A stretch of 64,000 nt of DNA from Pigmentiphaga kullae (lineage in GTDB: Bacteria > Pseudomonadota > Gammaproteobacteria > Burkholderiales > Burkholderiaceae_B), in contig NZ_SGXC01000001.1 in assembly GCF_004216695.1 (NCBI RefSeq), positions 1,364,001-1,428,000 on the forward strand, read 5' to 3'. Below the pieces are notes generated by a model. The model did no database searches. It was not told the DNA's origin and worked only from the letters and a program-made list of their open reading frames with translations. Position numbers and translations under genes: made by a program. This document shows positions 51,719 through 63,881 of this stretch, one piece after another (position 1 is the first letter of the stretch; each line of letters opens with the position of its first letter).

Positions 51719-51766
51719 TCCCGGCGCGACGCCGTCCGGAATCCCGGACCAGATGGTTCAATTGTC

Positions 51767-51784
51767 CTATTGACAGGTCAATAG
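51767..51784. promoter_or_regulatory. GntR operator copy A, upstream of the monooxygenase-ALDH operon
   Basis: CTATTGA-CAGG-TCAATAG, a perfect 7-4-7 inverted repeat, 51 bases before the monooxygenase GTG. Shares the form CTATTG-N6-CAATAG with copies at 56454 and 57335. Confidence 0.75.
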
Positions 51785-51835
51785 AATAAATGTGAAATGG
51801 CTCGAAAAACGTCGACAACCCAAGCGAGGTAGCGT

Positions 51836-53044
51836 GTGAGCACCGGGACCCCCGAGCAGGTCATTATTGTAGGCGGCGGCCCCGTGGGCCTGGTCGCGGC
51901 GATGCGGCTGGGCCATTACGGCATTCCGGTCGTGGTCGTGGAAGCCGAGGAACAGGTGTCGCGGGCCTTGAAGGCGTCCACCTTCCATCCGCCCACGCTG
52001 GAAATGCTGGACGAGTACGGTATCACGCCGGGGCTGATCGAAGCCGGGCTGGTCGCCCCCACTTGGCAGGTGCGCATGCACGAGACGGGCGAGTTCGCCG
52101 AGTTCGATCTGTCGGCGCTCAAGGACGAGACCGCCCATCCCTACCGCCTGCAGACCGAGCAATGGAAGCTGTCCGAGTTGCTGCTGGCCCACATCCGGGA
52201 GAAGCTGCCGGCGGTGCGGGTGCTGATGGGGCATCCGTGCGTGGAGGTGTCGCAGGACCAGGATTCCGTGCGGGTCACGGTGCAGCCGCCCAGCGGCGAG
52301 CGCCAGCAACTGACCGGGCGCTACCTGATCGCGGCCGACGGCGCCCGCAGCATGGTGCGGACCGCTCTGGACCTGAGCTTCGAGGGGCTGACCTTTCCCG
52401 AGACCACGGTGCTGGCCACCACCCGGTTTCCGTTCCACGAGCACATTCCCTCGCTGTCCTACATCAACTATTGCTGGGCCTCGACCGGCACCTTCAGCCT
52501 GCTGCGGCTTCCCGGCCTCTGGCGGGTCAGCCTGTATCCCTGGGAAGGCGAGTCGATCGACGACGCGCTTGAGCCCGAGTCCATCCAGAGGAAGCTCCAG
52601 CATGTCCTGCCGCGCGACCAGGCCTACGACGTGATGGAGATCCGGCCCTATCGAATCCACCAGCGGGTCGTGAACACCTACGTCAACGGCCGCATCGTGC
52701 TGGCCGGCGATGCCGCCCACATCAACAGCCCCAGCGGCGGCATGGGCATGAACGGCGGCATCCACGACGCCTTCAACCTCACGGACAAGCTGCGCCGCAT
52801 CTACGCGGGCGAAAGCGATGCGCTGCTGGGCCAGTACGAACGCCAGCGGCGCCCGATCGCGATCAAGCACGTGCTGCAGCAGTCGGGCCGCAACCGCGCC
52901 CGCATGCAGGAACGCGGGGAATCGCAGCGCCGCGCGACGCTGGAGGACTTGAAGCGCAAGGCGGACGATCCCGCCCTGGCCCGCGAGTACCTGCTTGAAA
53001 CCTCGATGATCTTGAGCCTGCGCGAAGCGGCCGCGATCGACTAG
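51836..53044 (+). CDS. Class A FAD-dependent monooxygenase
   Basis: 402 residues from GTG, with GAGG a few bases upstream. FAD-binding GGGPVG (Gly13, Gly15, Gly18), the DG motif AADGARSMVRTAL and the second FAD motif LAGDAAHINSPSGGMGMNGGIHDAFNL. The overall pattern is that of aromatic or heteroaromatic ring hydroxylases (PHBH/6-hydroxynicotinate/salicylate type). It has no C-terminal thioredoxin-like extension. First gene of a two-gene operon with an aldehyde dehydrogenase and under operator copy A. It probably opens the pathway by hydroxylating an imported substrate. Confidence 0.92.
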   Translation: MSTGTPEQVIIVGGGPVGLVAAMRLGHYGIPVVVVEAEEQVSRALKASTFHPPTLEMLDEYGITPGLIEAGLVAPTWQVRMHETGEFAEFDLSALKDETAHPYRLQTEQWKLSELLLAHIREKLPAVRVLMGHPCVEVSQDQDSVRVTVQPPSGERQQLTGRYLIAADGARSMVRTALDLSFEGLTFPETTVLATTRFPFHEHIPSLSYINYCWASTGTFSLLRLPGLWRVSLYPWEGESIDDALEPESIQRKLQHVLPRDQAYDVMEIRPYRIHQRVVNTYVNGRIVLAGDAAHINSPSGGMGMNGGIHDAFNLTDKLRRIYAGESDALLGQYERQRRPIAIKHVLQQSGRNRARMQERGESQRRATLEDLKRKADDPALAREYLLETSMILSLREAAAID

Positions 53045-53056
53045 GCCGGGACCGCC

Positions 53057-54556
53057 ATGAATCAGCCCACGCAGGCGGAATTCCCCATCCGCGAGCAGGT
53101 ATCGAGCTTCATCGAAGGCCGCTACACGCGTACGGCCGGACACGAACTGCCGGTGATCTTCCCCGGCGACGCGCGGCGCATCTCGACCCTGGTCGAGGCG
53201 TCGGCGGACGAAGTCGACGCGGCGGTGCGATCCGCCCGGGCCGCTTTCGACGACGGGCGCTGGCGCGGGCTGCCGGTCGAGGCGCGCCAGGCCGTGATGC
53301 GCAAGGTGGCCGACCTCGTCGACAAGCACCGCGACGAACTGGCCTACCTGGAGTGCATGAATTCCGGCATTCCCATGCGCCACCTGCAGAAGGGGCAGAT
53401 TCCCCGCACCGCCTACAACTTCCGCTTCTTCGCGGAATTCCTGGGCCAGCATGCCGAGAAGCTGCACGGCCAGACGGACGGGTACCTGACGCTGGTGCTG
53501 CGCGAGCCGGTGGGTGTCGCGGCGTTGATCGGCCCTTGGAACGCGCCGCTGGCCCTGACGTCGATGAAGATCGCCGGCGCCATCGCGTTCGGCAACAGCT
53601 GCGTCTGCAAGCCCTCCGAGGTCACGCCGCTGGCGGTCGCGCGGTTCATGGAGCTGCTGATCGAGGCGGGCGTGCCGCCGGGCGTCGTCAATCTGGTCAA
53701 CGGCCGCGGCGGCGTCACGGGCGAGGCCCTGGTGGCGCATCCGCAGGTGGACCTGGTCTCGTTCACGGGCGGCACGCAGACGGCGCGCCGGATCTCGGCC
53801 AGCGCCGGCGAAGGGCTCAAGCCGCTGTCGCTGGAGCTGGGCGGCAAGTCCGCCAACATCGTCTTCGAATCGGCCGACCTGGAGCGCGCGGTGGACGGGG
53901 CGCTGGTCGGCATCTTCTCGAACAATGGCCAGCAGTGCCTGGCCGGTTCGCGCATCCTGGTGCAGCGGCCGGTGCTGGACCGCTTCGTCGACGCCTTCGC
54001 GCAGCGCGCCCGCCGGCTGCGCATAGGCAGCCCGCTGGACCCGGCCACCGAGATCGGGCCGCTGGCGTTCCAGGCCCACCGGCAACGGGTGGCCGGCTAC
54101 GTGGACATCGCCCGTGCCGACGGCGCGCAACTGCTGTGCGGCGGCGCGACGGTCGAGGCGCTGGAGCCGGGCTTCTATTTCCAGCCGACGGCCGTGCTGG
54201 CGCGGGACAACACGGCGCGCGTCTGCCGCGAGGAGATCTTCGGGCCCTTCGCCACCATCGTTCCGTTCGACACCCAGGACGAGGCCTGCGCCATCGCGAA
54301 CGACAGCGAGTTCGGCCTGGTGTCCTATGTGTGGAGCGACCACCAGCCCACGGTGATGCGCGCGCTGTCGGAGATCCGGGCCGGCATGGTATGGGTCAAC
54401 ACGCCCATGACGCGCGACCTGCGCGCCCCTTTCGGCGGCATCAAGGCATCGGGCTATGGCCGCGAGGGCGGCGAGTCCAGCATGAAGTTCTATACCTTCG
54501 AGAAGACGGTCATGCTGCCCACGGTGCCACCGTCGATACCCCGCATGGGTATATGA
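53057..54556 (+). CDS. NAD(P)-dependent aldehyde dehydrogenase
   Basis: 499 residues. Catalytic Glu260 in SLELGGKSANIVFE and nucleophile Cys294 in NNGQQCLAGSR. IGPWNAPLALTSMKIAGAI and the EEIFGPFATIVPF segment are typical. Closest in style to betaine/hydroxymuconic/vanillin-type ALDHs. It would oxidise the aldehyde produced downstream of the monooxygenase. Twelve bases after the monooxygenase stop and ended by a bidirectional terminator. Confidence 0.95.
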   Translation: MNQPTQAEFPIREQVSSFIEGRYTRTAGHELPVIFPGDARRISTLVEASADEVDAAVRSARAAFDDGRWRGLPVEARQAVMRKVADLVDKHRDELAYLECMNSGIPMRHLQKGQIPRTAYNFRFFAEFLGQHAEKLHGQTDGYLTLVLREPVGVAALIGPWNAPLALTSMKIAGAIAFGNSCVCKPSEVTPLAVARFMELLIEAGVPPGVVNLVNGRGGVTGEALVAHPQVDLVSFTGGTQTARRISASAGEGLKPLSLELGGKSANIVFESADLERAVDGALVGIFSNNGQQCLAGSRILVQRPVLDRFVDAFAQRARRLRIGSPLDPATEIGPLAFQAHRQRVAGYVDIARADGAQLLCGGATVEALEPGFYFQPTAVLARDNTARVCREEIFGPFATIVPFDTQDEACAIANDSEFGLVSYVWSDHQPTVMRALSEIRAGMVWVNTPMTRDLRAPFGGIKASGYGREGGESSMKFYTFEKTVMLPTVPPSIPRMGI

Positions 54557-54592
54557 AAAAACGGCGCTTTCTGGTGAAAGCGCCGTTTTTTT
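54556..54592. terminator. Bidirectional intrinsic terminator
   Basis: AAAAACGGCGCTTT...AAAGCGCCGTTTTT with a short loop and A/T tracts on both sides, starting at the ALDH stop and seven bases short of the convergent racemase-family stop. It should terminate both operons. Confidence 0.92.
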
Positions 54593-54598
54593 GCCGGC

Positions 54599-55357
54599 CT
54601 AGGGCTGCTGACGCGCGAGGCGTTCGCGCCAGTGGTCGCCCCGCAGCCAGGGCTCCAGCGGCGCGGGCCGGCCATCCACGGCCGAGACGCCCATCCAGGC
54701 CAGGCACAGCATGCACGACAGCACCGGCACGCGCGACCGGGCGTTCGCCGCCAGCAGCGGGGCCAGGGTGGGCATGCCCGTGCCCAGCATCAGGATGGCA
54801 TCGGTGTCGTCGCGGGCCAGGTCGTCCAGCAGCGCGCCGGCGGCGTCCGCCTTCATCGAATAGATGGGATGGAACTGCGTGTGGTCCATGGCGGCCGACG
54901 CGATGCGCGACACCGCGAAGCCCTGGGATTCCCAATAGGCCTTGCTGGAGGCGGTGAGTTCGGCGGGATAGGGCGAGGCCAGCGCGATCCGGCGCGCGCC
55001 CAGCTGCTTCAACGAGGCGACCACCGCGGTGGCCGCGGTGAAGGCCGGCACGCCGCGCTCGCGCTCGATATCCGCCAGCACCTGTTCCTCGCGTTCGCGG
55101 CCCACCAGGTAGGAGGCGCCGGTGCAGCCCACCGCGACCGCCTTGATGGGCGCGTTGGCGAACTGGTCGCAGGCGGTATCCAGCCTGTCCACGTAGTCGA
55201 CCAGCCGCGCCTCGATGGTGGACTTGTCGCTCATCAAGCGGGCATTGATGTGCGCGTATCCGGCCGGCAGCAGGATGAAGTACTCGGGCTCGACCGTGGT
55301 GTTGGCCTGCGGGGTCAGCAGGCCGATGAGCCCCTTGGGTGCGTATTCGACGGCCAT
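54599..55357 (-). CDS. Asp/Glu-racemase-superfamily protein (maleate isomerase/arylmalonate decarboxylase branch), single catalytic Cys
   Basis: 252 residues from MAVEYAPKGLIGLLTP. The N-terminal GLLTPQANTTVEPEY is close to maleate isomerases (NTTxE). First catalytic Cys is Cys78 in AVGCTGASYL. The second Cys, expected in a S/G-C-T-N segment, is replaced: the sequence reads LMLGTGMPTLAP with Gly192. Two-Cys members isomerise or racemise; one-Cys members such as arylmalonate decarboxylase do other chemistry, though that enzyme keeps the second Cys. Seven bases after the Bug gene on the same strand, and facing the ALDH operon. Confidence 0.85.
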   Translation of the reverse strand: MAVEYAPKGLIGLLTPQANTTVEPEYFILLPAGYAHINARLMSDKSTIEARLVDYVDRLDTACDQFANAPIKAVAVGCTGASYLVGREREEQVLADIERERGVPAFTAATAVVASLKQLGARRIALASPYPAELTASSKAYWESQGFAVSRIASAAMDHTQFHPIYSMKADAAGALLDDLARDDTDAILMLGTGMPTLAPLLAANARSRVPVLSCMLCLAWMGVSAVDGRPAPLEPWLRGDHWRERLARQQP

Positions 55358-55364
55358 GCGGGCA

Positions 55365-56375
55365 TCAATCCAGCTTGATGTTGGCGGCCTTGATGATGGG
55401 CGCCCACTTGCGGTCCTCGTCATGCAGGAACTTCACGAATTCCGCCTGCGGCGCGCCGATCGGGGTCAGCCCCTGTTCGGCCAGCTTGCTGCGGAAATCG
55501 GCGTTGGCCATGACCTTTCCGAGCGCGGCCTGGAGCCGGTCGACGACGGCGGCGGGCGTGCCGGCCGGCGCCGAGACGCCGAACCAGGCCTCGCCCACGG
55601 TGCCGGGCACGACCTCGTTCATCGTCGGCACGTCGGGGAAGGCGGGGACGCGCTTGGGGCCGCTGACGGCCAGGATGCGCACGTTGCCCGCCTTGGACTG
55701 GGTGGAGGCCACCGCCATGTTGTTGAAGATGGCGTCCAGCTGTCCGCCCAGCAGGTCGTTCATGGCGGGACCCGTGCCCTTGTAGGGAACGTGGGTCATG
55801 TCCATGTGCGCCTTCTGCTTGAGCATTTCGCCGGTCAGGAAGCCCGCCGAGCCTACGCCGGCCGAGCCGTAGTTGTACCTGCCGCCGGCCTGGCGGGCCA
55901 GTTCGACGAATTCCTTGAAGTCCTTCGCGGGGTGGTTGGTGCGCACGATCAGGCCGTTGGGGAAGGTGCCCAGCAGCATGATGTGCGTGAAGTCGCGATA
56001 GGGATCGTAGGGGATCTTCTGGCCCAGCAGCGGACCGGTGGTGATGGCCGCGCCGTTGGTGATGACCAGCGTGTAGCCGTTGGGCGGCGCCTTGGCGCCC
56101 AGGTCGGTTCCCAGGATGGAGCCGGCCCCGCCCTTGTTGTCCACGATGACCGACTGGCCCACTTCCTCGGCCAGCGCGTTGGCGACCAGCCGTCCGATGA
56201 CGTCGGTCGAGCCGCCCGGGCTGAACGGCACGATGAGCTTGATGGGACGATCGGGATAGGCCTGGGCCAGGACCGCGCCGGAAGCGGCGGCAAGGCCCAC
56301 TGCAAGGAACGCGCGGCGGCAGATGTTCAGCACGCGGGGGCGGGCGCGGTGTTCCCCTGTAATATGATTGCGCAT
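55365..56375 (-). CDS. Bug (TctC-like) periplasmic binding protein
   Basis: 336 residues from MRNHITGEHRARPRVL. The signal peptide ends near GAVLAQ; mature start AYPDRPIKLIVPFSPGGSTD and IVDNKGGAGSILGTDLGAKA are diagnostic. First gene of an operon with the racemase-family protein and divergent from gntR, with operator copy B in the 112-base spacer. It is therefore the probable binding protein for the acid degraded by this gene set. Confidence 0.93.
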   Translation of the reverse strand: MRNHITGEHRARPRVLNICRRAFLAVGLAAASGAVLAQAYPDRPIKLIVPFSPGGSTDVIGRLVANALAEEVGQSVIVDNKGGAGSILGTDLGAKAPPNGYTLVITNGAAITTGPLLGQKIPYDPYRDFTHIMLLGTFPNGLIVRTNHPAKDFKEFVELARQAGGRYNYGSAGVGSAGFLTGEMLKQKAHMDMTHVPYKGTGPAMNDLLGGQLDAIFNNMAVASTQSKAGNVRILAVSGPKRVPAFPDVPTMNEVVPGTVGEAWFGVSAPAGTPAAVVDRLQAALGKVMANADFRSKLAEQGLTPIGAPQAEFVKFLHDEDRKWAPIIKAANIKLD

Positions 56376-56453
56376 GACGTGACCTGAAGGAAATGTGTAC
56401 GACGGCATGTGGATATTCCGCCAGGTTCCGTCATCGAGTCAAGCTAAATTGTT

Positions 56454-56471
56454 CTATTGGACAGACAATAA
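56454..56471. promoter_or_regulatory. GntR operator copy B, between bug-racemase and gntR
   Basis: CTATTGG-ACAG-ACAATAA: same form as copies A and C, with five of seven arm positions paired. It is 17 bases before the gntR ATG and 79 bases before the bug ATG. The weaker symmetry fits an autoregulatory site. Confidence 0.68.
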
Positions 56472-56487
56472 GACAGAATCGGGATCT

Positions 56488-57273
56488 ATGCCGCAAACCC
56501 TGCCCCTGCCGAAGTACCACAGCGTCTACCTGGTATTGAAAGAAAGGCTGCGCGACGGCGTGTACGACGACCGCGTGCCCGGCGAGCTGGAACTGATGGA
56601 CGAGTTCGCCGTGTCGCGCGCCACCGTGCGCAAGGCCCTGGAGAATCTGACCCAGGAAGGCCTGATCGAGCGGTCGGCCGGACGCGGCACCCGGCGCCTC
56701 CAGCCCCCCGGCCAGGCGGCCCGGGGAGGGACGGCCGCCCCGCGGATGGCGGGCCTCCTGGACAACATCATCGCCGCCAGCCTGGACACCACGGTCAAAG
56801 TCATCGAGCACGAGTACGTGTCCGCCACCGAACCGGTGGCGCAGATGCTGCAGATCGAACCGCGCGCGCAGGTGCTGCGGGCGGTTCGCGTGCGCAGCAC
56901 CAAGGCGGGTCCGGTTTCCTGCATCACCACCTGGGTGCCGCGCGAGTTCGCGGGCAACCTCGGCCGCCGGCAGCTCGGGCGCAAGGCCATGCTGGTGCTG
57001 ATCGAGGAATCGGGCGTGGCGATCGGCCGGGCCCGGCAAAGTATCTCCGCGCGTCAGGCCGACGCCACCGTCGCGGGGCTGCTCGGGCTGCCGCTGGGAT
57101 CGGCGCTGCTGTCGGTCAGCCGCGTGGTCTACGACGTGAACGACCGCCCCGTGCTCTGGCTGCAGGGCCTGTACTGCCCCGACCGCTACGAGTACGAAAT
57201 GGAGTTGTCGAGGGTGGGCGAGATCGACGCCAAGGTCTGGGTCAGCAAGGATTTCAACGCCTACATGCGCTGA
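56488..57273 (+). CDS. GntR-family regulator, HutC/UTRA subgroup, of the 52-61 kb catabolic genes
   Basis: 261 residues from MPQTLPLPKYHSVYLVL. Winged helix: KERLRDGVYDDRVPGELELMDEFAVSRATVRKALENLTQEGLIER (in parts) with the wing GRGTRRL. UTRA effector domain: VLRAVRVRSTKAGPVSCITTWVP, ending RPVLWLQGLYCPDRYEYEMELSRV. Start chosen downstream of operator copy B. The regulator is flanked on both sides by genes carrying the same dyad, so it very likely controls them and itself. Confidence 0.92.
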   Translation: MPQTLPLPKYHSVYLVLKERLRDGVYDDRVPGELELMDEFAVSRATVRKALENLTQEGLIERSAGRGTRRLQPPGQAARGGTAAPRMAGLLDNIIAASLDTTVKVIEHEYVSATEPVAQMLQIEPRAQVLRAVRVRSTKAGPVSCITTWVPREFAGNLGRRQLGRKAMLVLIEESGVAIGRARQSISARQADATVAGLLGLPLGSALLSVSRVVYDVNDRPVLWLQGLYCPDRYEYEMELSRVGEIDAKVWVSKDFNAYMR

Positions 57274-57278
57274 CGCGC

Positions 57279-57298
57279 CGCGCCGGGTATCCGGCGCG
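57279..57298 (+). terminator. GC hairpin after gntR
   Basis: An 8-bp stem (57279-57286 with 57291-57298) and a GTAT loop just after the stop. No T tract follows. It may partly insulate gntR from the LeuC-like operon, which has its own operator. Confidence 0.4.
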
Positions 57299-57334
57299 CC
57301 ACAAATACGAACACAAGAACCCGAATCAAATGTA

Positions 57335-57352
57335 CTATTGTTAGGACAATAG
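57335..57352. promoter_or_regulatory. GntR operator copy C, upstream of the LeuC-like operon
   Basis: CTATTGT-TAGG-ACAATAG, a perfect 7-4-7 inverted repeat, 46 bases before the TTG start. Spacing and arms match copy A. Confidence 0.75.
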
Positions 57353-57397
57353 ATTGGAAGGGCCCGGCCGGGTCCTTCGAGGATATCGGGTGACAGT

Positions 57398-58675
57398 TTG
57401 ACTACATCGCCGGATGAAGGCCGGACGCTGGCGCAGAAGCTGATCGCGCGCGCCTCGGGGCGCGCCAGCGTGCGCGTGGGCGAGATCGTGACCTGCAAGG
57501 TCGATCTCGCGATGTTCCATGACTCCTCGGGACCGAGGCGGCTCAAGCCCATGCTGGAAGAGCTGGGCGCGGGCATCTGGGACAAGTCGCGCGTGGTGCT
57601 GGTCATGGACCACTACGTGCCCGAGCGCGACGAGGATTCCCGCAGGATCGTCCGCATCGCGCGCGAGTGGGCGCGCGAGCAGGACCTGCCGCACGTCTAC
57701 GACAGCCAGGGCATCTGCCACGTCGTGGTGCCGCAGGGCGGGCACATCCTGCCCGGCATGTTCTGCGTGGGCGGGGATTCGCATTCGCCTACGGGCGGCG
57801 CGTTCGGCGCCTACATGTTCGGCATCGGCTCGACCGAGATGCTTGGGGTGGTCGTGACGGGCGAGATCTGGCTGCGCGTGCCGGACACCCTGCGCATGCA
57901 CTGGTCCGGCGTCTTGTCCCAGGGCGTCACCGCCAAGGACATGATGCTGCACATGCTGGGCCGCTTCGGCATGAACGGCGGTGCCTACCAGGCCGTGGAG
58001 TTCTGCGGGCCGGCGGTGCGGGCGCTGGGCATGCAGGAACGCATGACGCTGTCGAACATGAGCGCCGAGCTGGGCGCCCAGGCCGGCCTGATCGCGCCCG
58101 ACGACATTACGGCCGAATGGCTGGCCGCCACCGGCGCCAAGGTGCCCGACCTGAGCGGATGGCATACGGACGAAGGGGCCGCCTGCACCCGCTACGATTT
58201 CGATGCCGGCGCGCTGGCGCCCATGGTGGCCGCACCCCATAGCCCCGCCAATTCACGGCCGGTCGACGACTACCATGGCGTACCGGTCCATGTGGCCTAT
58301 GTCGGCGCGTGCACGGGCGCCAAGCTCGACGACCTGCGCGCCGCCGCATCGGTGCTGCGGGGCCACCGGGTGGCGCCGGGCGTGCGGCTGATCGTCGCCC
58401 CGGCCAGCCTGCGCGACCAGGAGGCCGCGCGCGGCGAAGGCGTGCTGCAGGTCCTGATGGATGCCGGCGCGGAGCTCTTCCCGACCTCCTGCGGCGCCTG
58501 CTCGGGCTACGGCAGCCCCATGGGGGACGATGTCACGGTCATCTCGACCACCGCGCGCAACTTCAAGGGCCGCATGGGCTCGCCCACCGCCCAGGTGTAC
58601 CTGGGTTCGCCCTATACCGTGGCCGCCTCGGCATTGCGCGGCGTCATCAGCGACCCGCGGGAGGTACTGGCATGA
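57398..58675 (+). CDS. Aconitase-family dehydratase large subunit (HacA/DmdA-like)
   Basis: 425 residues, starting at TTG. It is the shorter 3-isopropylmalate/homoaconitate dehydratase type, with [4Fe-4S] ligands Cys305 (VGACTGAK), Cys365 and Cys368 (SCGACSGYG). Also VVLVMDHYVPERDEDS, FCVGGDSHSPTGGAFGAYMFGIGSTE and ISTTARNFKGRMGSPTAQVYLGSP (in parts). This branch includes LeuC of archaea, homoaconitase and the 2,3-dimethylmalate dehydratase of nicotinate fermenters. It heads an operon with a small subunit, an isochorismatase-fold protein and a C-C lyase, which argues for catabolic hydration of an alkylmaleate-type acid. Confidence 0.9.
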   Translation: MTTSPDEGRTLAQKLIARASGRASVRVGEIVTCKVDLAMFHDSSGPRRLKPMLEELGAGIWDKSRVVLVMDHYVPERDEDSRRIVRIAREWAREQDLPHVYDSQGICHVVVPQGGHILPGMFCVGGDSHSPTGGAFGAYMFGIGSTEMLGVVVTGEIWLRVPDTLRMHWSGVLSQGVTAKDMMLHMLGRFGMNGGAYQAVEFCGPAVRALGMQERMTLSNMSAELGAQAGLIAPDDITAEWLAATGAKVPDLSGWHTDEGAACTRYDFDAGALAPMVAAPHSPANSRPVDDYHGVPVHVAYVGACTGAKLDDLRAAASVLRGHRVAPGVRLIVAPASLRDQEAARGEGVLQVLMDAGAELFPTSCGACSGYGSPMGDDVTVISTTARNFKGRMGSPTAQVYLGSPYTVAASALRGVISDPREVLA

Positions 58676-59202
58676 GCGCGACCACGCATCGCGTCTGGAA
58701 GCTGGGGCAGGACATCGATACCGATCTGCTGGCGCCCGGCTACGTCATGAAGCACGGCATCGAGGTCATCGCCACGCACTGCCTGGAGTCGGTCCGGCCC
58801 GAGTTCGCCGCCACCGTGCGGCCGGGCGACGTGGTGGCGGCGGGGCCGGGCTTCGGCATCGGCTCCTCGCGCGAGCAGGCCGCGGCGGCGCTGGTGCGCC
58901 TGGGCGTGGCGGCCGTGATCGCGCCGTCCTATGGCGGGCTGTTCTTCCGCAACGCCTTCAACGTCGGGCTGATGCTGCTGACCTGTCCGCAGGCGGAGTC
59001 GCTGGACGAGGCCGCGCGGATCGAGATCCGGTTCCGCGAGACGCCGCAGGTGGCGACCCCGGACGGGCGGGTGCTGGCGTGCGAACCCATTCCGGACTTC
59101 CTGGTCGACATGGCTCGCAGCGGCGGCCTGCTGAATCAGCTTCGCAAGCGCCTGGCCGGGAATGGTCCCGGCACTTCTTCCTCCGGACATCTATCGCGAT
59201 GA
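58672..59202 (+). CDS. Aconitase-family dehydratase small subunit (HacB/DmdB-like)
   Basis: 176 residues, coupled to the large subunit by ATGA. It has the short small-subunit form: LGQDIDTDLLAPGYVM and GPGFGIGSSREQAAAALVRLGVAAVIAPSYGGLFFRNAFNVGL (in parts). The substrate-specificity loop after DIDTDLLAPG differs from the LeuD at the left end of the window. Forms the active heterodimer with the preceding protein. Its stop overlaps the next ATG. Confidence 0.9.
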   Translation: MSATTHRVWKLGQDIDTDLLAPGYVMKHGIEVIATHCLESVRPEFAATVRPGDVVAAGPGFGIGSSREQAAAALVRLGVAAVIAPSYGGLFFRNAFNVGLMLLTCPQAESLDEAARIEIRFRETPQVATPDGRVLACEPIPDFLVDMARSGGLLNQLRKRLAGNGPGTSSSGHLSR

Positions 59203-59819
59203 CGAACGCATCCCTTCCCGCCGACCCGGCACGCACCGCGCTGCTGATCGTGGACCTGCAGAACGATTTCCTGGCGCCCGACGGCGCCTACGCCCGGGGC
59301 GGGGCGGTCAGCGCCGCCGCGGCCGCCTTGCCGCCGCGCGTGGCGGCAGTGGCGCGGGCGCTGAAGGCGGCCGGCGGCATGGTGGTCGCCAGCCAGTTCA
59401 CGCTGTGGCCCGACGGCCGCGGCGAACCGATGATCGCCCCGCACCTGGCGGCGCTGCGGCCGTTCCTGCGCAAGGGCGACTTCGCGCCGGGCAGCCGCGG
59501 GCAGGCCAATGTCGCCGAACTGGACGGCCTGGTGGACGTGTCGGTCTGCAAGGTGGCGTACTCCGCCTTCTTCAACACGCAGCTGGACTGGGTGCTGCGC
59601 CATGCGGGCATCGATACGGTCGCCGTGTGCGGCATCGTGACCAACGGCGGCGTGGCCAGCACGGTCCGCGACGCCCACATGCGGGAGTACCACGTTGCCG
59701 TGCTGGCGGACGGCTGCGCCGCCTTCCGCGAGGAAGTGCACGCCACGGCGCTGGCCGACATGGCGGGCATCGCCGACGTGACCGACTGCCGCAGCTTCGA
59801 GCGCGGCCTGGCCGCCTGA
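59199..59819 (+). CDS. Isochorismatase-fold protein lacking the catalytic cysteine
   Basis: 206 residues. Asp19 (IVDLQNDF) and Lys118 (SVCKVAYSAF) of the triad are present, but the nucleophile position is Gly151: the sequence is GIVTNGGVASTVRDAH instead of TNxCVxxTxRDA. Isochorismatases such as EntB and PhzD also lack this Cys and cleave vinyl ethers, so an amidase role is unlikely, while a vinyl-ether or other hydrolysis is possible. ATGA-coupled to the small dehydratase subunit, so it belongs to the pathway. Confidence 0.88.
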   Translation: MTNASLPADPARTALLIVDLQNDFLAPDGAYARGGAVSAAAAALPPRVAAVARALKAAGGMVVASQFTLWPDGRGEPMIAPHLAALRPFLRKGDFAPGSRGQANVAELDGLVDVSVCKVAYSAFFNTQLDWVLRHAGIDTVAVCGIVTNGGVASTVRDAHMREYHVAVLADGCAAFREEVHATALADMAGIADVTDCRSFERGLAA

Positions 59820-59831
59820 AGGAGCCTCGCC

Positions 59832-60695
59832 ATGTCCCACGATTTGCGCAACCGCCTGGCCCGTCCCGGCATCGTGCTCGCCCCGGGCGTCTACGATGCC
59901 TTCAGCGCCCTGGTCGCCGAACAGGCCGGCTTCGAGGCCCTGTACCTGTCCGGCGCGTCCATCGCCTATACCCGGCTGGGGCGTTCGGACGTCGGCCTGA
60001 CCACCTATACCGAAGTCGCCGATACCCTGGCGCGCATCACCGAACGGGTGTCGCTGCCCGTGATCGTCGATGCGGACACCGGGTTCGGCAACGCGCTGAA
60101 CGCGATGCGCGCGGTGCGCGGCCTGGAGCGCGCCGGCGCCGCGATGGTACAGCTCGAGGACCAGACCTTTCCCAAGCGCTGCGGCCATCTGGACGGCAAG
60201 TCCGTGGTGCCGGTTGCCGAGATGGCCGGCAAGCTCAAGGCCGCGCTGGACGCGCGCGTCTCGTCCTCCACCCTGATCCTGGCGCGTACCGACGCGGTCG
60301 CGGTGGAAGGGCTGGAGGCCGCGCTGGAGCGCGCCGAACGTTATCTGGAGACCGGAGTGGACGCGCTGTTCATCGAGGCCCTGAGGACGCCAGAGCAGAT
60401 GGACGCGGCCTGCCGCCGCTTCAAGGGCCGGGCGCCGTTGCTGGCCAACATGGTGGAGGGAGGCAAGACCCCCATCCAGAGCGCGGCGGAACTGGAGCGG
60501 CACGGCTTCGGCATCGCCATCTTCCCGGGCGGCACCGCGCGCGCGGTGGCCCATGTGCTGCAAGGCTACTACGGCAGCCTGCGCGAACACGGCACGACCT
60601 CCCCCTGGCGCGACCGCATGCTGGATTTCGACGAACTGAACGCGCTGATCGGCACGCCGGAACTGATGCGGCTGGGAAGTTCGTATTCCGGTTGA
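59832..60695 (+). CDS. PEP-mutase/isocitrate-lyase-superfamily C-C lyase (2-methylisocitrate / 2,3-dimethylmalate lyase-like)
   Basis: 287 residues. Mg-binding DADTGFGN (Asp80, Asp82) and the lyase signature QLEDQTFPKRCGH with catalytic Cys117, both typical of true lyases rather than PEP mutases. LYLSGASIAYTRLGRSD lines the active site. Such enzymes cleave malate derivatives retro-aldol-wise to pyruvate or glyoxylate plus a small acid. As the last gene of the dehydratase operon it would cleave the hydrated product. Oxaloacetate-decarboxylase-like activity is the main alternative. Confidence 0.9.
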   Translation: MSHDLRNRLARPGIVLAPGVYDAFSALVAEQAGFEALYLSGASIAYTRLGRSDVGLTTYTEVADTLARITERVSLPVIVDADTGFGNALNAMRAVRGLERAGAAMVQLEDQTFPKRCGHLDGKSVVPVAEMAGKLKAALDARVSSSTLILARTDAVAVEGLEAALERAERYLETGVDALFIEALRTPEQMDAACRRFKGRAPLLANMVEGGKTPIQSAAELERHGFGIAIFPGGTARAVAHVLQGYYGSLREHGTTSPWRDRMLDFDELNALIGTPELMRLGSSYSG

Positions 60696-60746: not shown

Positions 60747-61655
60747 ATGACGCTACAGCAACTGCGCGACTTTCTGGCTGTGGTGGAGCAGGGCAGCTTC
60801 AGGCAGGCCGCCCGTATCCTGGACGTTTCCCAGGCTGGCCTGACCAATAGCGTGAAGGCGCTCGAATCCTCGTTGGGGGGATCCCTGCTCGCCCGCTCGG
60901 GGCGCGGGGTTCACCTGACCGAAGCCGGCCACCGGCTGTATGCCAGGGCGATCCTGATCGACCGCGAGGCCAGGCGCGCCGAGGACGAGGTGAGGCAGAT
61001 GCACGGCCACGAGACGGGCACGGTGGACGTGGCGATCGGGCCGTCCATGACCGCGCTGCTGCTGCCGCGCGTGGTCGCGGATTTCCGCGCGCGCTTCCCC
61101 AAGGTTGAACTGCGCCTGACCAGCGGCTTCTTCGAGCAGATCCTGCCCTCGCTGCAGTTGGGACAGGTGGATTTCGCGGTGACGTCGGTGCCGGACGAAG
61201 GCGCGGGCGGAGGCCTGGTCAGCACGCCCCTGTTGCAGACGCGCCTGGGCGTGGTGGCCCGCAAGGGGCATCCGATGGCGGATGCCCGGTCGCTGCGCGA
61301 ACTGGCCGACTGCGAATGGGTGGTGATGGGGCCGCCGGGACGGCCGGGCGGCACGATCGTACGTTTCTTCGAGGACAACGGGCTGCCCGCGCCCAAGGCC
61401 GCGGTGCGCTGCGAATCGTTCGCCCAGGTCATGGCCCTGGTCAATTCCACCGATCTGCTGGCACTGGTCCCGCGCGTGATGCTGGACCAGGGACTGCTGG
61501 GCAGCCTCGTGGTCCCGGTCGAACTCGACGAGCACGCGCATAGCTTCGAGATCTGCCTGGTGCGCCGCGCCGAGGCCTCGCTGACGCCCGCCGCGGCCGC
61601 CTTCGCCGCGATGTGCGAATCGTGCAGCCGCATCATCGCCGGCATGGGCAGGTAG
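60747..61655 (+). CDS. LysR-family regulator
   Basis: 302 residues from MTLQQLRDFLAVVEQG, preceded by AAGGAG. Helix-turn-helix: SFRQAARILDVSQAGLTNSVKALESSLGGSLLAR. Effector domain: VDVAIGPSMTALLLPRVVADFRARFPKVELRL, with VRCESFAQVMALVNSTDLLALVPR late. It lies 51 bases after the lyase on the same strand and converges on the Bug-ligBA operon. It may regulate the ligA-ligB-bug genes, a second layer beside GntR. Confidence 0.9.
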   Translation: MTLQQLRDFLAVVEQGSFRQAARILDVSQAGLTNSVKALESSLGGSLLARSGRGVHLTEAGHRLYARAILIDREARRAEDEVRQMHGHETGTVDVAIGPSMTALLLPRVVADFRARFPKVELRLTSGFFEQILPSLQLGQVDFAVTSVPDEGAGGGLVSTPLLQTRLGVVARKGHPMADARSLRELADCEWVVMGPPGRPGGTIVRFFEDNGLPAPKAAVRCESFAQVMALVNSTDLLALVPRVMLDQGLLGSLVVPVELDEHAHSFEICLVRRAEASLTPAAAAFAAMCESCSRIIAGMGR

Positions 61656-61687: not shown

Positions 61688-62665
61688 TCAGTCCAGCTGG
61701 AGGTCCAGGCTGCGGACGATGGGCTCCCAGCGTGCCGTATCGGCCCGGAGCATCGCGGCGGCCTCGGCCGACGGGGTGCCGGCGGTCACCATGTCGAGTT
61801 CGGTCAGCCGGGCGATGATGGCCGGGTGTTTCATCGCGCGGGCGACGGCCTCCTGCAGGACCGCGATGCTGGCGGGCGGCGTGTCCTTGTGCACCCACAC
61901 GTACTGTTTGAACGTGGCGTCCAGGCCGTCCACGCCCGTCGCCTGGGCGAGCGTGGGCACCTCGGGCAGGCTGGGCGACCGGATCGCGGTGGACACCGCA
62001 AGCGCCGTCAGCTTGCCGGTCTTGATGTGAGGCAGCACGGTCGGACCCGCCAGCCAGCCGCAATCGACCTGGCCGCCCAGCACGTCGGTCAGCGCGGGAC
62101 CGGGGCCGCGATAGGCCACATGCTGGATGTCGGCGCCCGTGGCGCGCAGGAACATGGCGCCGGCCAGGTGTCCGGGCGTGCCGTTGCCGCCCGAGGCATA
62201 GGTCAGCCGCTTCTTCCCGGCCAGCTCCACCAGCTGGCTGGCGCGGTCGACCTTCACGCCCGGATGGCAGACCAGCACCTGGTTGAAGGTGGCCACCATG
62301 GATACCGGCACCATGTCGCGGCGCGCATCGAAGCTGAGTTTCTTGTAGACCAGCGGGTTCACGGTGACGACCGTGTCGGCGCCGACCAGCAGCACGTGTC
62401 CATCGGGCCGGGCCCGCAGCATCTCGCCGGGCGCGAGATTCAGGCCGGCCCCAGGGCGGTTCTCGACCGTGAAGGTCTGGCCGAACGAGGCGGCCAACTG
62501 TTCGGCCAGCGACCGGGCGATGATGTCCGACGGCGCGCCCGGCGGGGAACCGGACAGCATGCGGACCGGCCCGCCGGGATAGGCGGGTTGCGCGGCGGCG
62601 CAGGGCGCGGCCGCGGTCGTTACGGCAAGGGCCAGCAGGCATGCCGGCGGGGTAAGGCGGATCAT
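61688..62665 (-). CDS. Bug (TctC-like) periplasmic binding protein
   Basis: 325 residues. Signal peptide ends at APCAAAQ; mature YPGGPVRMLSGSPPGAPSD and VENRPGAGLNLAPGEML are variant but recognisable Bug segments. The usual VVPF of the first strand reads MLSGS. Its ATG overlaps the ligB stop (ATGA), so it is co-translated with the dioxygenase and may bind an aromatic acid for that pathway. Confidence 0.9.
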   Translation of the reverse strand: MIRLTPPACLLALAVTTAAAPCAAAQPAYPGGPVRMLSGSPPGAPSDIIARSLAEQLAASFGQTFTVENRPGAGLNLAPGEMLRARPDGHVLLVGADTVVTVNPLVYKKLSFDARRDMVPVSMVATFNQVLVCHPGVKVDRASQLVELAGKKRLTYASGGNGTPGHLAGAMFLRATGADIQHVAYRGPGPALTDVLGGQVDCGWLAGPTVLPHIKTGKLTALAVSTAIRSPSLPEVPTLAQATGVDGLDATFKQYVWVHKDTPPASIAVLQEAVARAMKHPAIIARLTELDMVTAGTPSAEAAAMLRADTARWEPIVRSLDLQLD

Positions 62666-63516
62666 GAGGTCTCCTCCTCGGCGTCCACGAAAGTGACCAG
62701 CCCCATGCCGCTGGTCATCGGGGCGTAGTAGTTCTTGTGCAGCCGCCGGACCCGCGGCGTCATCGCGCCGCGCATGATCAGCCACATGATCAGTTCGACC
62801 GCCTCGGCCCCGGCCGCCTGCATGATGTCCTCGTGGCTCATGGCCGCGAGCGACGCGGGGTCGGACTCGATCAGGTCCAGCCATCTCCGGTCGAAGGCTT
62901 CGTCCAGATGGCCGAAGCGTTCCCCGTGCAACTGGTGCGACATGCCGCCGGTGCCGACGATCGCCACGCGCGCGTCGGCGGGATAGCTTTCGACGGCGCG
63001 GCGCAGCGCCTGGCCCAGCCGCAGACAGCGGCGAGCCGTGGGCAGCGGATGCTGGATCACGTTGACGACCAGCGGCACGACCTTGATGTTCCAGTCGGGC
63101 TGATAGGACCACAGCAGCGGCAGAGGCACGAGCAGGCCGTGGTCCACCGCCATTTCCTGGCATATCGTCAGGTCGAATTCGTCGGCGATCAGGGCATTGG
63201 CCAGGTGCCAGGACAGGTCCGCGTCGCCCTTGACGGCGGGCAGCGGCCGCTGGCCGAAGCCTTCGTCGGCCAGCGGATAGCTGTCGGCCGTGCCCAGCGC
63301 GAAGGTGGGGCAGCGGTCCAGGCCGAAGTCCGAGCCGTGGTCGTTGTAGACGAAGATCACGGCGTCGGCGCGCACTTCGTTCTCCAGCCAGTCCTTGACC
63401 GGCAGATAGCCGTCGAAAAGCGGCTTCCATGCCGGGTCCTGCTGCTTGCCCAGGTCGAAGGCGCGTCCGATGGACGGAACGTGCGAACTGCCTATGCCTG
63501 CCACGATGCGTGCCAT
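62662..63516 (-). CDS. ligB: Protocatechuate 4,5-dioxygenase-type extradiol dioxygenase, beta (catalytic) subunit
   Basis: 284 residues. Type II (LigB) extradiol fold with Fe(II) ligands His12 (GIGSSHVP), His60 (VYNDHGSDF) and Glu241 (EAVELIMWL), and catalytic His194 in GTGGMSHQLHG. It opens the ring of protocatechuate, gallate or a related catechol next to the hydroxyls. Its ATG overlaps the ligA stop by one base (TGATG), typical of the tight alpha/beta coupling. It may use a substituted protocatechuate, given the neighbours. Confidence 0.92.
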   Translation of the reverse strand: MARIVAGIGSSHVPSIGRAFDLGKQQDPAWKPLFDGYLPVKDWLENEVRADAVIFVYNDHGSDFGLDRCPTFALGTADSYPLADEGFGQRPLPAVKGDADLSWHLANALIADEFDLTICQEMAVDHGLLVPLPLLWSYQPDWNIKVVPLVVNVIQHPLPTARRCLRLGQALRRAVESYPADARVAIVGTGGMSHQLHGERFGHLDEAFDRRWLDLIESDPASLAAMSHEDIMQAAGAEAVELIMWLIMRGAMTPRVRRLHKNYYAPMTSGMGLVTFVDAEEETS

Positions 63517-63881
63517 CAGACGGCCCCCTTGTCCTGGCGCGTGGCGAGGAATTCGTCCAGGCTCTGGCCGCGCATCTGCGCGCCCATCGTGTAGAGCCCG
63601 GCTCCCACCGTCGCGCCGATCTTGATCATGTAGTAGATGTTGCCGCCCAGCCTGACCAGTTCCAGCCAGTCGCGATCGCGGATGGCCTGCTTCTGGGGCT
63701 CGGACAGTCCGAACGAAGCCATGTAGGCTTCCTCGTCCTGCCGGAAGCGTTCGCGGTTTTCGGACCGGGTGAGCGACATGCACAGCTTGTTGACGGGATA
63801 GCCCCGGCGGCTGCGATCGCCGTCGAAGACATAGGTGCCGTCTATGCCCCAGTCCCGGGGCGGGGGTGATGCGTCCGTCAT
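63516..63881 (-). CDS. ligA: Protocatechuate 4,5-dioxygenase-type alpha subunit
   Basis: 121 residues. LigA fold: GTYVFDGDRSRRGYPVNKLCMSL at the N terminus and RFRQDEEAYMASFGLSEPQKQAIRDRDWLELVRLGGNIYYMIKI (in parts). This small helical subunit caps the LigB active site and supplies substrate-selectivity residues. First complete gene of the ligA-ligB-bug operon in the window; the gene upstream runs off the edge. Confidence 0.92.
   Translation of the reverse strand: MTDASPPPRDWGIDGTYVFDGDRSRRGYPVNKLCMSLTRSENRERFRQDEEAYMASFGLSEPQKQAIRDRDWLELVRLGGNIYYMIKIGATVGAGLYTMGAQMRGQSLDEFLATRQDKGAV

Follow-up and report, generated by a model that had tools for sequence, protein, structure and literature searches.

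The window analysed here, a stretch of 64,000 nucleotides from the genome of Pigmentiphaga kullae, contains a regulator gene of the GntR/HutC subfamily (gntR, 56488..57273, plus strand, coding for a winged helix plus a UTRA domain) and, around it, three copies of an inverted repeat, CTATTG-N6-CAATAG, that we have examined as putative operators of this protein. Copy A (core at 51767-51784, plus strand, CTATTGACAGGTCAATAG, a perfect 7-4-7 dyad) precedes two plus-strand genes, the first for a FAD-dependent monooxygenase-type protein (FAD_binding_3, 51836..53044) and the second for an aldehyde dehydrogenase (ALDH, 53057..54556). Copy B (56454-56471, plus strand, CTATTGGACAGACAATAA, arms with one mismatch) is found before gntR itself and adjoins a divergent pair on the minus strand, a Bug/TctC substrate-binding protein (bug, 55365..56408) and a protein of the arylmalonate-decarboxylase/Asp-Glu-racemase family (54599..55360). 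Copy C (57335-57352, plus strand, CTATTGTTAGGACAATAG, again a perfect 7-4-7 dyad) heads a plus-strand operon of four genes: a LeuC-like large subunit of the aconitase family (57398..58675, TTG start), a LeuD/DmdB-like small subunit (58672..59202, the start being read from the sequence and the families scanned on 58615-59202), an isochorismatase-family amidohydrolase (59199..59819, families scanned on the longer open reading frame (ORF) 58461-59819) and a PrpB-like lyase (59832..60695, placed by protein families in the PEP mutase/ICL superfamily). A LysR-type protein is encoded 3' of this operon (60747-61655).

The three dyads of the original prediction can be read directly in the sequence, at the stated distances (51, 17 and 46 bases) from the start codons GTG at 51836, ATG at 56488 and TTG at 57398. 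The 4-base centre that they were said to share is not common to them, since it reads CAGG in A, ACAG in B and TAGG in C. The AT-rich patches in which they were described to lie were judged by eye only.

The repeat is very rare. In the whole genome (6.22 Mb in five contigs) the pattern CTATTGN6CAATAR has exact matches in four places, A, B, C and a further copy, D, on another contig (C2, 921806-921823) upstream of hyuB and then hyuA. The expectation per genome from the base composition of the window is 0.08, and the reversed control gave zero exact matches in the whole genome. Allowing one mismatch there were 12 rows in the genome against 6 for the reversed control; eight of the 12 were A-D on either strand and the other four places amounted to the control level. 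The longer pattern TGTNCTATTGN6CAATAR was exact in the genome only at A-D, and with up to two mismatches it gave 8 rows (seven of them A-D) against none for the control; at three mismatches it was not above the control (13+13 vs 16+16). Within the window, A, B and C were the only places with zero or one mismatch. A search of the window with up to three mismatches found nine places (shuffle mean 4.91) and is uninformative, because 6 of 100 shuffles reached nine. The three dyads are genuine, far above chance. The motif is thus not common genome-wide; its predicted confinement to the promoters of the locus holds for A, B and C and fails for D, the fourth exact copy.

We have used sets of sites hand-picked to represent each promoter class (19 for a sequence model, 20 for the dyad analysis, 21 for the promoter analysis). 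Over the 20 sites, the best dyad centre was that of CTATTG-N6-CAATAG, and the 18-bp dyad appeared as the core of an element of about 26 bp, TGTnCTATTG-N6-CAATAGnACA, within a conserved block of about 29 columns that runs from about two bases 5' of TGT through the final ACA. Most of these sites had been gathered with a pattern that fixes several bases, so that the base counts of this analysis are partly by construction; for the counts from 30 upstream regions given below, the best core match in each region was taken instead. In the 26-bp frame (all plus strand), operator A reads TGTCCTATTG-ACAGGT-CAATAGAATA (51763..51788, with the monooxygenase start 47 bp downstream), B reads TGTTCTATTG-GACAGA-CAATAAGACA (56450..56475, 12 bp before gntR) and C reads TGTACTATTG-TTAGGA-CAATAGATTG (57331..57356, 41 bp before the LeuC-like gene). 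The GACA of the right outer arm persists at B and in most gntR sites of other genera; at A, C and D it is less well conserved. An overlapping dyad, TGTnCTA-N4-TAGnACA, centred 4 bp to the left, was weaker over the 20 sites (0.615 vs 0.74) and was for this reason rejected as the main operator, being kept as a possible second register.

Within the genus, gntR is present in 10 of 11 genomes; among named genomes the nearest relatives of the protein belong to Pigmentiphaga and to Alcaligenaceae/Burkholderiales (82-98% identity). All ten genomes with gntR have A, B and C with at most one mismatch per site, and in seven of them the three sites are exact (G192 and G193 have one mismatch at each site, G196 one at A). 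At B, 25 of the 26 site columns are invariant in the ten genomes, against 21 of the 77 other alignment columns around it. In G190 the monooxygenase-ALDH pair is located about 71 kb from gntR and has retained site A. The eleventh genome, G189, which has no gntR, showed no A, B or C and only six scattered places with two mismatches; it gave no match to the isochorismatase or to hyuB, and none to LeuC at E <= 1e-60 in a search made without a positive control. Two further places were not counted as operators: a two-mismatch site common to G192 and G193 (L109:7649, viewed in G192) falls inside a predicted ORF of 1132 aa, and a site of G192 (L116:5912) inside one of 700 aa.

A wider view was obtained from 268 genomes of the family, on which we have run a 30-position model built from the 19 sites (six of them gntR sites of other genera). 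A gntR match at E <= 1e-30 was found in 126 of these genomes, and close homologs, cut at E = 3.5e-70, in 44 (10 in the genus and 34 outside it, the latter with 50-53% identity); the next homolog below the cut (G187, 1.6e-62, 45%) had no model match listed. All 44 close homologs have a model match 8-25 bp upstream, a count that is partly circular because it includes the training sites and many near-copies. The tally used 78 of the 85 model-match rows, the seven left out being reverse-strand copies of site A. Without the model, the 18-bp core was present in all 30 upstream regions read, 13-23 bp before gntR, with one mismatch to CTATTG-N6-CAATAG in 11 and two in 19; that pattern alone also located the site before gntR in a genome of another genus, G066, where the model finds a second, weak match (G066:C74). 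A pattern match in G098 (G098:C6) was dropped, its surroundings being crowded with ORFs. The motif is thus kept in orthologous clusters, within the genus and beyond. Upstream of the gntR operator in L029-L047, at a distance of about 15 bp, is a second conserved element, GTGTTTTCCCGAT(A/G)GAACA; of the 20 upstream regions from other genera (L028-L047), all but L028 have it when CCCGAT(A/G)GAACA is counted by eye (19 of 20). The element includes one half-site and is a candidate for a second binding site.

The company of gntR in other genera bears on the meaning of site D. Behind the gntR site, homologs of several genes follow on the same strand: leuC (66-74% identity), leuD (61-65%), hyuB (77-79%), hyuA (69-77%) and the isochorismatase gene (73-75%). 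The fullest example, in G098 (L163), is a single run of gntR, leuC, leuD, hyuB, hyuA, isochorismatase and PrpB-like lyase homologs that also includes an ABC transporter, and in L012 a FAD enzyme is added; gene ends in these related loci are approximate, as the ORFs come from a crude script. L111 has the same run without the lyase (its isochorismatase gene runs off the end of the stretch), L113 has gntR, leuCD, hyuB and part of hyuA, L112 has gntR, hyuBA and the isochorismatase gene, and L110 has gntR, leuC and part of leuD. An isochorismatase homolog (E <= 1e-60) is found in 44 of the 268 genomes, 43 of which also belong to the 44 gntR-bearing genomes. The pattern is broken by G028, which has gntR only, and by G238, which has hyuBA and isochorismatase. 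In G238 there is no gntR in the fetched stretch (L162) and no model match in the genome. Its cluster of transporter, hyuBA, isochorismatase and FAD enzyme genes looks like similar pathway genes under other control. In Pigmentiphaga, hyuB is present in 6 of 11 genomes and preceded by D in five, the sixth (G198) being cut at the contig end. Thus hyuB-hyuA, remote from gntR here and neighbours of gntR in other genera, have here a site of their own. Because gntR, leuCD, hyuBA and the isochorismatase gene can elsewhere share one run behind one site, D finds an explanation and GntR is supported as the binder. The regulon is real and wider than had been claimed: the proposal of a regulon under the UTRA-GntR is supported, its restriction to the locus is not.

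The protein was also compared with relatives of known structure. The window GntR matches the winged-helix family PF00392 (54.5 bits, cut-off 27) and the UTRA ligand-binding domain PF07702 (102.5 bits, cut-off 23.8), and its closest PDB proteins by sequence are DasR and NagR/YvoA. In the NagR-DNA structure (PMC4333415), the half-sites are of 4 nt (GTGG...CCAC) and six apart, with Arg48 reading G-4 and Arg38 reading G-5. The operator discussed here, ATTG-N6-CAAT against GTGG-N6-CCAC, has the same half-site length and spacing, a fit at the level of sequence. In the alignment to NagR the Arg48 equivalent is kept and the Arg38 position is a leucine. These residues were read in the proteins of L012 and L013 and in 30 of the 44 close homologs, 32 proteins in all: every one has the arginine with which the recognition helix begins, and none has an arginine at the Arg38 position. 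Of the 60 half-sites in the 30 upstream sites, 58 have G at position -4 and all 60 have T at position -5, so that the missing arginine agrees with the missing guanine in the DNA. The system resembles the dre sites of NagR/YvoA in Bacillus subtilis in its winged helix and UTRA domain, its Arg48 equivalent and its G-4, and departs from them in having T instead of G at -5 and no Arg38 equivalent (unlike the NagR-type specificity for two guanines), in the conserved outer TGT/ACA and in its targets, catabolic here and N-acetylglucosamine genes there. PhnF, HutC and LSA1692-type UTRA regulators are among the top-scoring NCBIfam models for this protein, which misses their cut-offs widely (100.4 of 156.8, 89.3 of 220 and 99.3 of 275, respectively) and is therefore none of these equivalogs. 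AraR of B. subtilis (GntR/AraR subfamily) differs in its half-site spacing of six or eight. Its effector domain also differs from the UTRA domain of the window GntR. No paper on this regulator or its operator was found in the open-licence PMC literature; systems of this kind, in which an autoregulated UTRA-GntR has operators at its target genes, are already known.

The position of the operator relative to promoters suggests how it might act. A -35-like TTGAC(A/C/G) lies inside the operator in 16 of the 21 chosen sites, and in 13 of the 21 a hexamer with four of six matches to TATAAT follows at a spacer of 16-18. For spacers 8-39, the mean -10 match over the 21 sites peaks at 17 (2.86 of 6), the next being 2.43 at spacer 9. 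Specifically, operator A has TTGACA 17 bp upstream of TGAAAT, and at site D the promoter scan reports TTGACA-17-TAAAGT.

It appears highly probable, on the strength of these comparisons, that the dyad serves as operator for the UTRA-GntR encoded beside it, the proposed binder of all four copies, and that this protein is an autoregulated repressor of the GntR/HutC type acting on its own gene and on the units behind A, C and D. A GntR dimer would bind ATTG-N6-CAAT within TGTnCTATTG-N6-CAATAGnACA; through B it would shut off its own gene, through A the monooxygenase-ALDH pair, through C the operon of LeuCD, isochorismatase and PrpB-like lyase and, elsewhere in the genome, through D hyuB-hyuA. At A, D and the examined gntR sites of other genera, where the -35-like hexamer is in the left half of the operator, the repressor would block RNA polymerase, and a metabolite of the pathway acting on the UTRA domain would probably release it, as the family suggests. 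Copy B may also control the divergent bug-racemase pair. By eye, a candidate bug promoter (minus-strand TTGACT, 18 bp, GAATAT; window 56411-56440) adjoins operator B and lies outside it, its -10-like ATATTC being present in 8 of 10 genus upstream regions.

Repression is the likeliest mode of action because a bound dimer would cover the -35 hexamer inside the operator. That GntR binds the sites and instead activates its targets, or activates some and represses others, is improbable. In its favour, no promoter could be assigned at B and C in the window, where a -35 may thus lie outside the site, and the possible -35 hexamer of bug is, by eye, next to B and outside it; against it, A, D and the examined gntR sites of other genera have the hexamer within the operator, and DasR and YvoA/NagR, the relatives with solved structures, are described as repressors. 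Somewhat less probable still is that another regulator, the LysR-type protein or an unlinked factor, binds the sites and that gntR is merely one of its targets. The lysR gene does lie 3' of the C operon and the autoregulation of GntR is a proposal from sequence, but the sites accompany gntR in other genera and the half-site length and spacing of the dyad are those of NagR. The LysR-type protein itself was rejected as the binder, since three loci that retain the sites (L007, L010 and L114) have no lysR homolog above 33% identity (weaker matches were not displayed). A third alternative, conservation of the repeats as promoter sequence or as copied DNA with no shared regulator, is very improbable, for although TTGAC(A/C/G) in many sites resembles a -35 hexamer, the conserved block of about 29 columns has a clear dyad centre, B is far more invariant than its surroundings and the genome has exact copies at four promoters only.

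Several observations weigh against the reading of the dyad as the operator of a GntR repressor. The promoter figures are no independent statistic, because the 21 sites share a common relationship; in the window, a -10 matching the TTG of the operator is lacking at B and C, and a consensus promoter scan came back empty for both the A and the B-C stretches. The overlapping weaker dyad leaves the register of the operator unsettled. The absence of sites in G189 may follow the targets and not the regulator, because the targets are also unmatched there, and the L112 stretch has no leuCD. In L012 and L013 there is no site directly before gntR (52% identity); only a variant, ATTGTTCTAACATTAGAACAAT, was found about 7 kb upstream (L012:446, L013:689), heading an apparent long operon of transporter genes, gntR, leuCD, the FAD enzyme and the PrpB-like lyase. 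Model matches also occur in eight genomes without a close gntR homolog (G073, G148, G065, G048, G139, G064, G134 and G071). In G073 (L154:5493-5521) and G065 (L156 near 3080) the operator stands before ABC-transporter ATPase genes that are alike by eye, and the G073 site is adjoined by a UTRA-GntR of 36% identity and an arylmalonate-decarboxylase-like gene. The match in G148 lies before a LysR-type gene.

HyuBA-type enzymes are lactam or imide hydrolases, isochorismatase-type enzymes include amidases, LeuCD/DmdB proteins are hydratases and PrpB-like proteins are lyases. It is conceivable, although we advance it only tentatively, that an operon with one operator in other genera (as in L163) is scattered in Pigmentiphaga, each unit with its own copy, and that its genes encode an undescribed imide/lactam route. 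In such a route, ring opening of a cyclic imide or lactam by the HyuBA-type enzyme would come first; the isochorismatase-type amidase would then free a substituted maleate or succinate, the LeuCD/DmdB-type hydratase would hydrate this derivative and the PrpB-like lyase would cleave the resulting malate derivative. The analysis provides a concrete and testable list of operators and targets for an uncharacterised UTRA-GntR clade present in 44 of 268 family genomes, and connects the hydantoinase operon far from gntR with the same pathway, which limits the range of substrates to be considered. Should the reading hold, it would also be a clear case of a regulon surviving the break-up of its operon through copies of one operator, and it would carry a residue-to-base prediction (no Arg38, no G-5). 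Beyond the C operon, on the minus strand (window 62662-63881), there are LigB- and LigA-like ring-opening dioxygenase genes, adjoined by an ORF whose product resembles another Bug protein.

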